Positions 1 through 40,642 of a stretch of 42,144 nucleotides of DNA are shown piece after piece. Origin of the DNA: a virus; the IMG/VR virus record IMGVR_UViG_3300036791_000945, positions 1-42,144 of that record; one strand, written 5' to 3'. The notes below the pieces were generated by a model. That model saw nothing but the letters and a program-made list of their open reading frames with translations, was not told the DNA's origin and ran no database searches. Every line of letters begins with the position of its first letter. The stretch's first letter is position 1. A program made the translations under genes and the position numbers.

Positions 1-149
1 TACGGCTTGTAGCATTTGGAGCCAAAAAAAAGCCCGGGCTGGAAGCCCGGGCCAAATCGACTCTGAGATTACGCGGCGCGAGTTAACAGCGGCGGCGCCT
101 TGGCAGCAAACCACCATGGCAATCGCGCCTCGAAACAATCGGGCTTGCG
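1..149. repeat. Terminal direct repeat, left copy
   Basis: Bases 1-149 are repeated at 41995-42144. The two copies differ visibly only in an A-run (8 A here, 9 A at the right end). The repeat runs from intergenic DNA into the 3' part of the clamp-like gene. The simplest reading is a circular or circularly permuted genome assembled with an overlap; a true short direct terminal repeat is the alternative. Confidence 0.93.
24..52 (-). terminator. Rho-independent terminator of the leftward clamp operon
   Basis: Read leftward, a 9-bp stem (GCCCGGGCT, 3-nt loop, AGCCCGGGC) is followed by a run of eight T. It lies about 17 bases past the stop codon of the clamp-like gene at 69, the right place to end the transcript that starts upstream of 2266. 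Confidence 0.92.
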
Positions 150-737
150 GAACGGCATGATCAATCCGAAAGCGTGCGACGCATGCGGGAAGGTTACCAG
201 GGCGGGCCCGCCGGTGGTGGCGCCAGTCACGACAACCAGGCCTTTGTCGCTGCTAAGCGCCGCTGCGACGTCGCACATTTTGCCAAGCACGGACTGTTCA
301 AAAGCGGGCGCGGTCTCTTTGCCGTCAGGCGCCGTCTGTGACGACGTCACGACGTTGCGCCATGCCGGAAAGGCACCGTCGACAAAACAGTCTGGCGACA
401 CAGCGACTTCCGTGAACGGCGGTTCGCCGCTTTCGAGCACCACAAACGCGCGCTTGTCATGGTCGCCAATCGACAGCATGCGCGTGACATAACTCAGATC
501 ACTCTTAGCCGGCTTGCAAGCCCGCAATGCGTCGGGCGACAGCTTGATGATAGCGGACTGGTCGCACACTGCGGTGTCATCATGAATGGACACTAGATAG
601 CGGCCGTCGGTTGCGGTCAACGTGGCGCCCATGCGTTCGTGCGGTTCCACGAACACGCCTTGCAGGTAATAGCGCGTCTTGTCGGACGACATGCACATAG
701 CGGCGATACGGAACAGATTAGCGTTTACGCGGATCAT
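69..737 (-). CDS. DNA polymerase III beta sliding clamp-like protein
   Basis: The 222-residue product resembles the beta-clamp fold: a TDGRYL segment (residues 43-48) matches the clamp signature 'TDGHRL', and the C-terminal part has 'LIMPFR' (192-197), like the MPMR near the end of bacterial DnaN. A full DnaN is about 370 residues with three domains, so this is a shortened, divergent version. The start at 737 was chosen because AGGGATACCAAAT precedes it at ribosome-binding distance; an upstream in-frame start at 806 lacks this. It is the last gene of a leftward operon with the DUF932 and KOW-like genes. Inference: it may tether or divert the host polymerase to phage DNA. Similarity is by motif only, so a structural prediction would matter. 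Confidence 0.7.
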   Translation of the reverse strand: MIRVNANLFRIAAMCMSSDKTRYYLQGVFVEPHERMGATLTATDGRYLVSIHDDTAVCDQSAIIKLSPDALRACKPAKSDLSYVTRMLSIGDHDKRAFVVLESGEPPFTEVAVSPDCFVDGAFPAWRNVVTSSQTAPDGKETAPAFEQSVLGKMCDVAAALSSDKGLVVVTGATTGGPALVTFPHASHAFGLIMPFRKPDCFEARLPWWFAAKAPPLLTRAA

Positions 738-815
738 GATTTGGTATCCCTGGTTGCGACAGTCGCGATTGGCTGTCGCCACTGGCGCGGGACAAGCCCG
801 CGCCAATAGCTTCAG

Positions 816-16164: not shown

Positions 16165-18561
16165 ATGCCCTCCCTCCTCAGTCCTGGCGACAGCGGGCTA
16201 TCTGAGGCAACCATCATCAGCGGTGAGCCCACCGGGGGCGGCGGCGGCGGCTTGACGCCGATCGCCAACAACACGGTGCTCGGCAACGTATCAGGCTCGA
16301 CCGCGATACCGAGCGCTATCACTCCATCGCAGCTCACCGCACTGAACCCGCCAGGACCACCGCTGGGAACGCCACCAGCTAGTCCGGTGAATGGACAGTT
16401 GTTCTGGGACGACGTTGGCGGACAGCTCTACGTGGCTTATGGCGGGGTATGGGTTGCCGCATCATGTTGTGCTGGCGGCGGCAGCGGTGGCGGTGCCGTC
16501 AGTTCCGTGTTCGGGCGGACCGGCGCCGTTGTTTCGGCCAACGGTGACTACAGCTTCAGCCAGATATCGGGGGTCGCGGCGCCCGCCCAACTGCCGGTAT
16601 TCACCTCGACCGCCAACGGTGCGGTGCCGGCGCCGGGTGCGGCGACGCCGGCCACTTACGTGATGCAGGCCAACGGCGTTTGGGTTGCTCCCGCCACCGG
16701 AGGCGGGGTGACATCCGTCGCGATGACGGTCCCCTCGGGTCTCGCCGTTGCCGGCTCGCCGATTACATCGAGCGGTACCTTCGGCGTCACCTGGTCCGGC
16801 ACCATCCCGGCCAGCTCGCTGCCCGCGCCGACCACATCTACCCTCGGCGGCGTCAAGGCCGTAACGGCCGTGCCGCATCAGTGGGTGGCGTCCATCGATA
16901 CGACCGGCACCCCGCAGCTCAGCCAGCCGGGTTTTGCGGACCTCACGGGTAACATCGCCGTCGCCCAGATGAACAACGGGACCGGCGCCTCGGCTACTAC
17001 CTTCTGGTGCGGCAACAATACGTGGGCGACGCCGTCGGGCACCGGCGGCGGCACCGTCAATTCAGTAGCAATGACGGTCCCGAGTGGCCTCGCGGTTGCC
17101 GGGTCGCCCATCACCAACACCGGCACGCTCGCCGTGACGTGGTCGGGCACTATCCCGGCGACCTCACTGCCGAATCCAAGCGGCACGACGCTCGGTGGCG
17201 TGCAGAGCGCAACCGCGGCGGCCAACAACTTCATGACGGGCATCAGCACGCTGGGCGTGCCGACGTTCGCGCAGCCCTCGTTCGCTAACCTCTCGGGTAC
17301 CGCAACAGCAGCGCAGTTGCCCAATCCGACCACCAGCGCCAAGGGTGGCGTGCAGGCGGTCACCGCTGTTGCACATCAGTGGGTCAACTCGATCTCGACG
17401 TCGGGCGTGCCGACCCTGACGCAGCCGGCGTTCACCGATATCTCAGGCAGCGTCGCGGCCAGCCAGATGCCGGCGCTGACCGGCGATGTGACGTCGACGG
17501 CCGGTACCGTCGCCACCACCATTGCGGCAGGCGCGGTGACGCTCGGCAAGATGGCCAACCTCGCCGCCAATTCGGTGATCGGCAACAACACCGGCGCGGC
17601 GGCGACGCCGATCGCGCTCGGCCCGGCCCAACTCACCGCGCTCAATCCGCCCGGGCCGCCGGCAGGAACACCGCCCGCGTCACCCGTGGACGGGCAGCTC
17701 TATTGGGACAACGTCGGCGGCCAGCTCTACGTTGCCTATGGTGGCGTGTGGGTTGCCGCGACGTGCTGTGCCGGCGGTGGTGGCGGCGGCGGGGCTGTCA
17801 CCTCGGTGTTCGGGCGAACCGGCGCGGTGGTGTCGGCGAGCGGCGATTATTCGTTCTCGCAGATCAACGGTGTCGCAACATCCGCGCAATTGCCGGCGCC
17901 GACCACCGCGGCCATCGGCGGCGTCAAGGCTGTCACCGCGGTTGCCCATCAGTGGGTGGCGTCCATCGACACCACCGGCGCTCCCCAGTTGTCACAGCCG
18001 GCATTCACAGACATCAGCGGCACGGTAGCGGCGACCCAACTGCCGGCTCCCACGACTGCAGCGCTCGGTGGCGTCAGGGCAGTCACGGCGGTCGCGCATC
18101 AGTGGATCAACTCCATTGCCACGACCGGCATTCCGACCCTTACTCAGCCGGCATTCACCGACATTTCCGGTACCGCCGCCATCGCGCAGGTGCCGACCGC
18201 GACCTCGGCGCAGATACAGAGCAACACGGCCAGCCTGGTCCTCGATACGGATCAGACCTGGGGCGCGGTGGCGCCGGTCAGCACCGCTACCACCGGCGCC
18301 ATCACGCTCAACCTCTCGAATGGTATCCATTTCTCGCCCTCGGCCGCGCTCACCGGCAACGTCACGTTCAGCTTCTCGAACCTTAAGGCCGGCCAGTGCG
18401 GCATCATCGCTCTGCAGGCCGGCAGCTTCACGGTGTCGTGGAGCGGCACGCTGGTGTTGCCGCCGGCAGGTACGCCGGCCGCCAACACTTCCGGCTGGAC
18501 GTTGTATTTCTACTTCGTCATCAGCGCCACCGCCGGCGTCGCCATCAACAAGGTGCTGTGA
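16165..18561 (+). CDS. Large repetitive tail fibre-like protein
   Basis: A 798-residue Ala/Gly/Thr/Val-rich protein. About 100 residues occur twice (encoded near 16281-16580 and 17578-17880): 'PASPVNGQLFWDDVGGQLYV', 'GGVWVAASCCAGGG' and 'VFGRTGAVVSANGDYSFSQI'. The VFGRTGAVV-x-GDY motif is typical of phage tail fibres. A shorter unit with 'AHQWVASIDTTG' and 'QLSQPAFTDISG' appears four or more times. The C-terminus ends in an ordered beta domain ('SWSGTLVLPPAGTPAAN'). It is probably a trimeric fibre or appendage that contacts the host surface. The repeats may vary in number by recombination. Confidence 0.7.
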   Translation: MPSLLSPGDSGLSEATIISGEPTGGGGGGLTPIANNTVLGNVSGSTAIPSAITPSQLTALNPPGPPLGTPPASPVNGQLFWDDVGGQLYVAYGGVWVAASCCAGGGSGGGAVSSVFGRTGAVVSANGDYSFSQISGVAAPAQLPVFTSTANGAVPAPGAATPATYVMQANGVWVAPATGGGVTSVAMTVPSGLAVAGSPITSSGTFGVTWSGTIPASSLPAPTTSTLGGVKAVTAVPHQWVASIDTTGTPQLSQPGFADLTGNIAVAQMNNGTGASATTFWCGNNTWATPSGTGGGTVNSVAMTVPSGLAVAGSPITNTGTLAVTWSGTIPATSLPNPSGTTLGGVQSATAAANNFMTGISTLGVPTFAQPSFANLSGTATAAQLPNPTTSAKGGVQAVTAVAHQWVNSISTSGVPTLTQPAFTDISGSVAASQMPALTGDVTSTAGTVATTIAAGAVTLGKMANLAANSVIGNNTGAAATPIALGPAQLTALNPPGPPAGTPPASPVDGQLYWDNVGGQLYVAYGGVWVAATCCAGGGGGGGAVTSVFGRTGAVVSASGDYSFSQINGVATSAQLPAPTTAAIGGVKAVTAVAHQWVASIDTTGAPQLSQPAFTDISGTVAATQLPAPTTAALGGVRAVTAVAHQWINSIATTGIPTLTQPAFTDISGTAAIAQVPTATSAQIQSNTASLVLDTDQTWGAVAPVSTATTGAITLNLSNGIHFSPSAALTGNVTFSFSNLKAGQCGIIALQAGSFTVSWSGTLVLPPAGTPAANTSGWTLYFYFVISATAGVAINKVL

Positions 18562-38885: not shown

Positions 38886-40034
38886 ATGGAACAGTGGTGG
38901 GATGAATTGCCGCCGTTACCGCCGGAGTGGGAGAAGTTCATTGATGATCATGATTGCTGCAATGATCCGCCACGCAGCCGTAATGGCAACGGCATATATC
39001 AAGGCCGCGATGGCTTGCGCGAACGCAAGCGCCCGCCGGATTTGGGGTGGTGGCGCGAACGCCTAAGCGGCGATGGTTTGTGCGATCGGAGGTTTGATCC
39101 CTTGAAATATATCGTTCCGTACCTGCTGCCTGAAGGCGTCACGCTTCTGGTCGGCCGCCCGAAAATCGGCAAATCGTGGTTGCTGCAGCAGATCGCCGGC
39201 ACGATCGCCAAGGGCGATGTTACTTTGGTTGCTCCCAACGGCAATCCGCCGGCCAGCGGCGATGTGCTCTATCTGGCGCTCGAGGATAATTGGCGGCGCC
39301 TACAGCGGCGCATGACCAAGCACTATGGCGGGCTGAAGGACAACTGGCCCAAGCGCCTTGAGTTTGCGATCGAGTGGCTGCGGCTTGATGAGGGCGGGCT
39401 CGACGGCATTGGTGAGTGGTGCGCGGACAGGCCGGAACCGCGCCTGGTCGTCATCGATACGCTGGCGCGGGTGCGTGCCCCCAAGCGCGCCGGGCAGACC
39501 GATTACGAGGCGGATATGGAGGCCGCCGAGGGGCTGGTGCGGCTCTGCCGTGTGCACAGTGGCCTGTCCGTCATCGTGGCGCACCATGACCGCAAGCAAG
39601 AGGCCGGCGACGTCTACGACACTGTATCCGGCACGCTCGGCCTGCAGGGCGGCGTCGACACCATTGCGCTGCTTAAGCGGACCGGCGCCGGCACGACGCT
39701 TTATGTGCGCGGCCGTGACCTCGAGGAGGAGATCGAGAAAGCGGTCAACTTCGACCGCGACACCGCCCGCTGGCACATCCTCGGCGAGGCGACGGAGGTT
39801 TACCGGTCGAATTCGCGCAAAGCGATCCTGGACCTTCTCAAGGAGTGTGGGAGTCTTACGCCGCGCCAGCTGGCCGACCAGCTGGAAGGGATGAGCCACG
39901 CCAACGCCAAGCAGGCTCTAAATCGGTTGGCGAAGGATGGTGTGCTCGAGAATCACGGTGGGGCGTATCGCCTGCCCGGTGACACCCTGAATCCAGTGTC
40001 ACCGGCTGTCACCGGTCCTGTGTCACCGGATTAA
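38886..40034 (+). CDS. RepA-like hexameric replicative helicase/ATPase (AAA_25)
   Basis: A 382-residue protein of the RecA-fold AAA_25 group. Visible are Walker A 'GRPKIGKS' (90-97), 'YLALEDN' (129-135), Walker B 'LVVID' (187-191) and 'VAHHDRKQEAG' (231-241) as sensor. An N-terminal extension of about 75 residues and a C-terminal winged helix ('GSLTPRQLADQLEGMSHANA') flank the ATPase. It probably unwinds or loads helicase at the phage origin. The last codons ('NPVSPAVTGPVSPD') are encoded by the CGGTGACA repeats of the putative origin. No primase or polymerase domain is attached. Confidence 0.85.
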   Translation: MEQWWDELPPLPPEWEKFIDDHDCCNDPPRSRNGNGIYQGRDGLRERKRPPDLGWWRERLSGDGLCDRRFDPLKYIVPYLLPEGVTLLVGRPKIGKSWLLQQIAGTIAKGDVTLVAPNGNPPASGDVLYLALEDNWRRLQRRMTKHYGGLKDNWPKRLEFAIEWLRLDEGGLDGIGEWCADRPEPRLVVIDTLARVRAPKRAGQTDYEADMEAAEGLVRLCRVHSGLSVIVAHHDRKQEAGDVYDTVSGTLGLQGGVDTIALLKRTGAGTTLYVRGRDLEEEIEKAVNFDRDTARWHILGEATEVYRSNSRKAILDLLKECGSLTPRQLADQLEGMSHANAKQALNRLAKDGVLENHGGAYRLPGDTLNPVSPAVTGPVSPD

Positions 40035-40111
40035 CAGTTTGATTAAATTGATTTTTTTGCCGGTGACAAGTCGCGGTGACACGCGGTGACAGTGATTCCG
40101 TAGTGTCACCG
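39977..40111. other. Putative replication origin: eight mirror-arranged CGGTGACA iterons
   Basis: Motif starts (+ means CGGTGACA, - means TGTCACCG): +39977, -39997, -40007, -40021, then an AT-rich core 40029-40060, then +40061, +40074, +40084, -40104. Spacings are 20, 10, 14 | 40 | 13, 10, 20, so the right half is the reverse complement arrangement of the left half. The left half lies in the 3' end of the helicase gene, the right half in the following non-coding gap. The core contains runs such as ATTTTTTTG. This is the form of an iteron origin with an unwinding element; function is inference. Confidence 0.7.
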
Positions 40112-40144
40112 CTGCGCAATAATATTACGGAGGGGAGGTATTAG
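40112..40144 (+). promoter_or_regulatory. Short gap with strong ribosome-binding site
   Basis: CTGCGCAATAATATTACGGAG and the GGAGGGGAGG that follows lead to the ATG at 40145, giving strong translation of the next gene. No promoter is clear. Confidence 0.45.
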
Positions 40145-40360
40145 ATGACGCGCGTCAGCGATGTCCTGACCGTCTTACACCAGATCGACAGCCTGCGCGG
40201 GAAGGTCTGCGCGACCTGCAATCACTGGCAGCGGCGGGGGACCGACCCCAACGGCGAGCGCATCGGCCACTGCCTGAAGGACTATCATCCGCTCGGCGCC
40301 GATGACGGCTGCGATGATTGGCAGCCGATCCCAAGCGGTTGTACAAAGGTCCTAAAATAG
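40145..40360 (+). CDS. Small Cys-rich zinc-binding-like phage protein
   Basis: A 71-residue protein with Cys22, Cys25 (CATCNHW), Cys43 (GHC) and Cys56 (GC-DDW). The 'C-x2-C-x-W ... G-x-C ... C-x2-W' pattern is common in small proteins of proteobacterial phages and probably binds zinc. Strong GGAGGGGAGG upstream. Its neighbour at 40370 has the same pattern, so the two may be diverged duplicates. Confidence 0.65.
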   Translation: MTRVSDVLTVLHQIDSLRGKVCATCNHWQRRGTDPNGERIGHCLKDYHPLGADDGCDDWQPIPSGCTKVLK

Positions 40361-40369
40361 GTGTTTCGC

Positions 40370-40642
40370 ATGGGAACGAACATCGAACAGCCGCGCTGCG
40401 GGTCATGTCTTTGGTACGAGGCCGGCGCCGGCAATTCAGCTCACGGCCTGTGCATGCACGCGCCGCCGATGATTCAGGTGATCCTGCCGCCGCCCAATGC
40501 GGTCACCGGCAAACCGCAGCCGCCGATGGTGCAGGGGCTGCGGCCGCCGACCGCACAGAACGACCGCTGTCATCACCACACACATCACCACACACTTGCG
40601 CAAGCCGACGATAGACGTGTCGCAGGCGTCATGAAGTTTTAA
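40370..40642 (+). CDS. Small Cys/His-rich protein, paralogue-like
   Basis: A 90-residue protein with Cys10, Cys13 (CGSCLWY), Cys28 (GLCMH) and Cys67 followed by His runs ('DRCHHHTHHHTLAQADD'). Start at ATG 40370 is chosen over GTG 40361. Pro-rich middle. Metal binding is likely from the Cys/His set. It resembles the preceding gene in pattern and is convergent with the next gene; their stop codons share TTAA (40639-40642). Confidence 0.6.
   Translation: MGTNIEQPRCGSCLWYEAGAGNSAHGLCMHAPPMIQVILPPPNAVTGKPQPPMVQGLRPPTAQNDRCHHHTHHHTLAQADDRRVAGVMKF

Follow-up and report, generated by a model that had tools for sequence, protein, structure and literature searches.

Is the array of short repeats at the 3' end of a helicase gene in this virus the origin of its replication, and which protein reads it? 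The window, that is, the whole stretch of 42,144 nucleotides analysed here, is a virus record of its own in IMG/VR; it has matches to the terminase, the portal and the major head protein, to a tyrosine integrase, and to ERF and YqaJ recombination genes. Comparison of the locus with its relatives leads us to read the array, with a probability of about 0.85, as a phage replication origin that is recognised by the winged helix (wHTH) of the RepA-like helicase itself and on which two opposed rings load.

A mirror-symmetric array where the helicase gene ends

An exact motif search on both strands found eight copies of CGGTGACA at 39977-40111, with start-to-start spacings of 20, 10, 14, 40, 13, 10 and 20. 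The features of the locus are as follows.

38886-40034, plus strand: gene of the putative initiator-helicase, 382 aa, AAA_25/RSF1010-RepA-like with a C-terminal winged helix (Pfam, AlphaFold2, PDB fold match)
39084-39602, plus strand: AAA_25 match, residues 67-239 (Pfam)
39810-39971, plus strand: winged-helix codons, residues 309-362, proposed iteron-binding domain (model helices H1-H3)
39897-39935, plus strand: recognition helix codons, residues 338-350 (H338..AKQ343..; covariation with iteron sequence)
39977-39984, plus strand: CGGTGACA site 1, outer left, exact match
39997-40004, minus strand: CGGTGACA site 2, left block, exact match
40007-40014, minus strand: CGGTGACA site 3, left block, exact match
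40021-40028, minus strand: CGGTGACA site 4, left block, exact match
40029-40060, no strand: AT-rich core, proposed unwinding element, holding the helicase stop codon, 78% A+T
40061-40068, plus strand: CGGTGACA site 5, right block, exact match
40074-40081, plus strand: CGGTGACA site 6, right block, exact match
40084-40091, plus strand: CGGTGACA site 7, right block, exact match
40104-40111, minus strand: CGGTGACA site 8, outer right, exact match

The mirror centre of the array lies at 40044. The distances of the sites from it pair as 63.5/63.5, 43.5/43.5, 33.5/33.5 and 19.5/20.5, paired sites are always on opposite strands, and the symmetry holds to within one base. The original prediction had described eight exact motifs, mirror-symmetric in order and spacing, that overlap the end of the helicase gene, and we confirmed every copy, strand and spacing. 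The overlap was also as described: the array begins immediately 3' of the wHTH codons, its left half still belongs to the helicase coding sequence, at the 3' end, and the stop codon (40032-40034) falls inside the AT-rich core. The inner six sites, three on the minus strand followed by three on the plus strand, have the arrangement common to the relatives, and the outermost plus and minus pair is extra.

Outside the array, only one further exact copy of CGGTGACA occurs in the 42 kb, at 17931, and dinucleotide shuffles of the whole window contained 1.7 copies on average and 5 at most. Elsewhere in the window no 8-mer exceeded 4 copies per 135 bp, and in 20 simulated windows the maximum was 5. 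The A+T content of the core is equalled by only 0.045% of the 32-bp windows in the record. GC skew, which had been proposed as a check, did not switch at the array and was uninformative. Rfam gave only sub-threshold matches, and no intrinsic terminator was found near the array.

That the gene encodes a RepA-like helicase, as had been claimed, was borne out by a profile match to RSF1010 RepA (1g8y, E 1.1e-14) and by a PDB fold search in which RSF1010 RepA came first (1olo, 1nlf) and DnaB next. Pfam matched AAA_25 (3.8e-22) and, for the winged helix, HTH_24 as the best match (3.2e-5); it gave no match to a Toprim-type primase in the 382-aa protein. The AlphaFold2 model, made with 72 relatives, has a pLDDT of 86 and a RecA fold, with wHTH helices H1 at 309-321, H2 at 326-332 and H3 at 338-350, whereas the tail (residues 365-382) is of low confidence.

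Arrays in the same place in relatives

Relatives were chosen by protein, not by motif. The 80 viral and 80 genome loci were the best 80 in each collection, and the query (A3) was an alignment of the window helicase with four distant homologues. This five-sequence alignment was needed, as locus searches with the helicase as a single sequence found no relatives. In the 400 bp after the wHTH we looked for a repeated 7-mer, judging its significance by 100 simulations of each region under a first-order Markov model, and an iteron consensus was built automatically for each locus. Among these best 80 loci per collection, 104 of 158, window included, had a significant array after the wHTH, whereas of the two controls the ATPase region gave 4/158 and a downstream region 5/138. 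With redundancy removed (<70% identity), the best 80 per collection gave 71/110 loci with a significant array, again including the window, and the controls 2/110 and 3/93, respectively. About a third of the non-redundant relatives had no significant array, and some of these had 3 copies of a plausible iteron. By record title, the hosts with significant arrays include, among others, Alphaproteobacteria, Actinomycetota, Bacillota, Chloroflexi, Synergistales, Thermodesulfobacterium and Gemmatimonadaceae. Most of the nearest relatives among the genomes are Alphaproteobacteria.

The iteron of a relative is usually unlike that of the window; examples are GATAACC, CCGGACA, CGTTACA, GGTTACA, TGGGACA, AACGGACA, GCTAACAC and GGTTGCA. 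Thus, when the motif was sought in relatives, as had been suggested, CGGTGACA itself was missing in most of them and another array stood in its place. Because another array replaces it, the loss of the motif beside the same helicase does not count against an origin. Many of the iterons among the 79 non-redundant arrays (L169-L328) end in ACA. In the Caldicellulosiruptor bescii plasmid pATHE01 (L123:1728-1910), in-frame ATTCACTCT repeats (IHSIHSIHS...) and inverted copies of them directly follow the wHTH codons of a helicase relative, and this array is a probable plasmid origin.

The geometry of the arrays was also compared. In the 79 non-redundant arrays, 180 of 292 same-strand neighbours were 8-10 bp apart and 119 exactly 9 bp, and in 41 arrays, against 15.4 expected, the sites fell without exception into two blocks of opposite orientation. 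The gap between the blocks in relatives was A+T-richer (0.47) than the gene (0.38). Four loci (L193, L197, L207 and L253) have minus sites on the left and plus sites on the right, like the window, and others are asymmetric (e.g. L214, --++++++, and L223, ---+++++++). Three further loci (L205, L230 and L243) carry 12-16 iterons, partly in several blocks, and their surplus suggests extra control sites.

The arrays lay at a median of 28 bp downstream of the wHTH codons. Relative to the stop codon, 26 of the 79 spanned it, 22 were wholly inside the ORF and 31 wholly after it. The overlap with the coding tail is therefore incidental: the position of the array is tied to the wHTH codons and not to the stop codon. 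The idea that such a layout forces the protein tail and the origin to co-evolve found no support in this comparison: besides the 31 arrays wholly 3' of the stop codon, the tail is the low-confidence part of the model, and it is the wHTH, not the tail, that covaries with the array. For the same reasons we rejected the notion that the array fixes the protein tail.

The iteron follows the recognition helix

Between loci, iteron similarity was hardly correlated with ATPase-domain identity (Spearman 0.07) and more so with recognition-helix identity (Spearman 0.23). In a partial Mantel test over 80 loci, with both the ATPase domain and the remainder of the wHTH controlled, r was 0.21 against a maximum of 0.127 in 1000 permutations, a modest effect in which phylogeny is controlled only approximately, solely via ATPase-domain identity. 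When a 12-residue window was slid along the helicase, the eight best of 141 positions all overlapped helix 338-350. High-scoring single columns included Q343, K342, A344, A339 and R347, along with a few in the ATPase domain.

The loci with GGTGACA iterons have the recognition helices DHDLAKQ (L193), DHATAKQ (L197), EHDAAKQ (L207), DYDLVKQ (L217) and TIDNTKQ (L253). The counterpart in the window is SHANAKQ, so that -KQ- is common to the window and these relatives, and the ATPase domains of L193, L197, L207 and L217 are only 39-44% identical to that of the window. Other candidate helix-iteron pairs, beside -KQ- with GGTGACA, are NNVKQ with GATAACC, NNVDQ with GATAAGA, and NNVRF/Y with GCTAAC. 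These comparisons indicate that the iterons covary with the recognition helix in the wHTH of their own helicase and not with the ATPase domain. From the presence, position and covariation of the arrays, we infer that the wHTH binds the iterons and sets the specificity. The proposal that an origin is written into the end of its own initiator/helicase gene thus gains strong comparative support, from same-place arrays in most relatives and from the covariation.

A model for initiation and its alternatives

In the mechanism that we propose, the C-terminal winged helix would bind the CGGTGACA iterons through helix 338-350, a contact that the covariation supports. The AT-rich core is flanked by iteron blocks that point in opposite directions, so two helicase rings could assemble on them in opposite orientations; this double loading is suggested by the symmetry of the array and by analogy with SaPI Rep, which apparently binds its iterons as two hexamers (PMC7581432). 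The rings would then melt the core at 40029-40060, and replication would proceed bidirectionally without a separate initiator or loader. Priming and synthesis would presumably be left to host enzymes, because no primase was recognised among the early genes scanned.

The same array could instead be an operator, bound by the helicase wHTH or another phage regulator to control the helicase or the gene at 40145, with no function as an origin. Its right block does lie about 30 bp upstream of that small ORF, which has a Shine-Dalgarno-like GGAGGGGAGG, and Pfam identifies HTH regulators encoded near the array; however, no sigma-70-like promoter was found within 39800-40400. Across the family the helicase gene has the array at its 3' end, as two blocks around an A+T-richer gap, and the fusion of a DNA-binding domain to a replicative helicase points to loading and not to repression, so that we regard a pure operator as improbable. 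We consider it similarly unlikely that a separate initiator or host factor recognises the array and recruits the helicase secondarily. This is how RSF1010 works, whose RepA the ATPase domain resembles and which uses a separate RepC (PMC4234260), but the helicases of this family have a wHTH of their own, encoded immediately before the array, the iterons covary with the recognition helix of that domain, and no DnaA box was found anywhere in the 42-kb window.

The 135-bp inverted repeat might also act as a DNA hairpin or cruciform, as in the origin of pRN1, where a stem-loop lies 3' of the replication gene (PMC4234260). The single strand folds at -38.9 kcal/mol against -17.1 in shuffles (z -9.2), but such a fold arises automatically from oppositely oriented blocks, and many relatives have unequal blocks or spacings in which no matching stem is possible, L214 and L223 being examples. 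That the iterons track the recognition helix speaks for a protein reading the DNA, and a hairpin function is very improbable indeed.

Comparison with known replication systems

The origin reading places the locus closest in plan to the pri-rep-ori modules of PICI and SaPI elements (EcCICFT073, SaPIbov1), in which plasmid maintenance depends on rep and ori (PMC6092414); its authors state that the plan is common to no other known bacterial replicon. There the origin is immediately 3' of the initiator-helicase gene, as would be the case in the window (array 39977-40111, gene end 40034). Two iteron sets flank an AT-rich region, in the window and family-wide as well, and the helicase C-terminal domain recognises the origin (PMC6092414; PMC7581432), as we propose for the wHTH of the window. 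In contrast, the Rep proteins of PICI and SaPI are of DUF927 and D5/primase-C-terminal types, whereas the window has the AAA_25/RepA fold only, and those elements are satellites lacking phage structural genes, whereas terminase, portal and major head protein all have matches in the window. The window is not classed as a PICI, because the helicases differ and it is a phage and not a satellite.

RSF1010 RepA is the helicase in the PDB nearest to that of the window by fold and by sequence. In RSF1010, RepA only unwinds and RepC binds the iterons (PMC4234260), whereas the window helicase has a fused wHTH, and the sites, each 8 bp long, stand in two opposed blocks. Lambda O-type initiators resemble the window in that a wHTH protein binds iterons lying beside and partly inside its own gene, but they are not helicases, their wHTH is N-terminal and their iterons are mid-gene. 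The iteron of P4 is GGTGAACAG and is not identical to CGGTGACA. P4 alpha also contains a bacterial-type (Toprim) primase, and none was recognised in the window protein. Like the window protein, alpha joins a helicase and a C-terminal winged helix, which binds iterons, in one polypeptide, according to the passage of PMC4234260 that cites Yeo 2002. The origin of AICE RepAM elements was considered as an equivalent and left unconfirmed; in PMC3218068, DUF3631 is what defines RepAM, and the predicted mode of replication is rolling-circle.

The literature searched, whose coverage was partial, contained no replication or binding assay for this helicase family, no description of its origin, although an earlier account is possible, and nothing relevant on GGTGACA or TGTCACC as a phage origin motif.

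The wider occurrence of GGTGACA and the helicase class

In a set selected by motif, GGTGACA arrays of the searched form occurred in at least 120 viral contigs (L002-L121, IMG/VR) against 38 for a permuted motif; the strict three-site CGGTGACA pattern had no match in the viral collection. Among the matches listed, GGTGACA arrays lay either in the middle of the genes of HTH_36-type initiators, which made up 55 of the 78 overlapping ORFs, or beside D5/VapE/Prim-Pol primase-helicases. This wider occurrence supports the iteron nature of the motif, and several different kinds of initiator may have arrived at a single iteron by convergence. We did not adopt GGTGACA as a universal phage iteron, the scan being motif-selected and the motif varying within the helicase family.

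Whether winged-helix-fused RepA-like helicases form a large, cross-phylum class of self-loading initiators, each with a mirror-symmetric origin of its own next to its gene, and with a readable helix-iteron correspondence is, in our judgement, evenly balanced. If so, origins and incompatibility groups could be predicted from protein sequence alone, through the correspondence between recognition helix and 7-8-bp iteron, and about 80 natural protein-site pairs are on offer for testing such a specificity code. The organisation known from PICI and SaPI recurs here on a helicase of another superfamily, both in phage contigs and in genomes from many phyla of bacteria, which suggests that a fused DNA-binding domain can self-load DnaB/RepA-type rings at an origin. 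The array layout would also offer a route to origins in uncultured phages.

Other genes of the record

Directly 3' of the array are two small ORFs (40145-40642, plus strand), neither with a Pfam or PHROG match, and the first has a cysteine-rich pattern. The product of 72-806 (minus strand) matched the PHROG family RusA-like resolvase (6e-19); its PDB matches, beta sliding clamps, are weak (E 0.07), and the PHROG name may be wrong.
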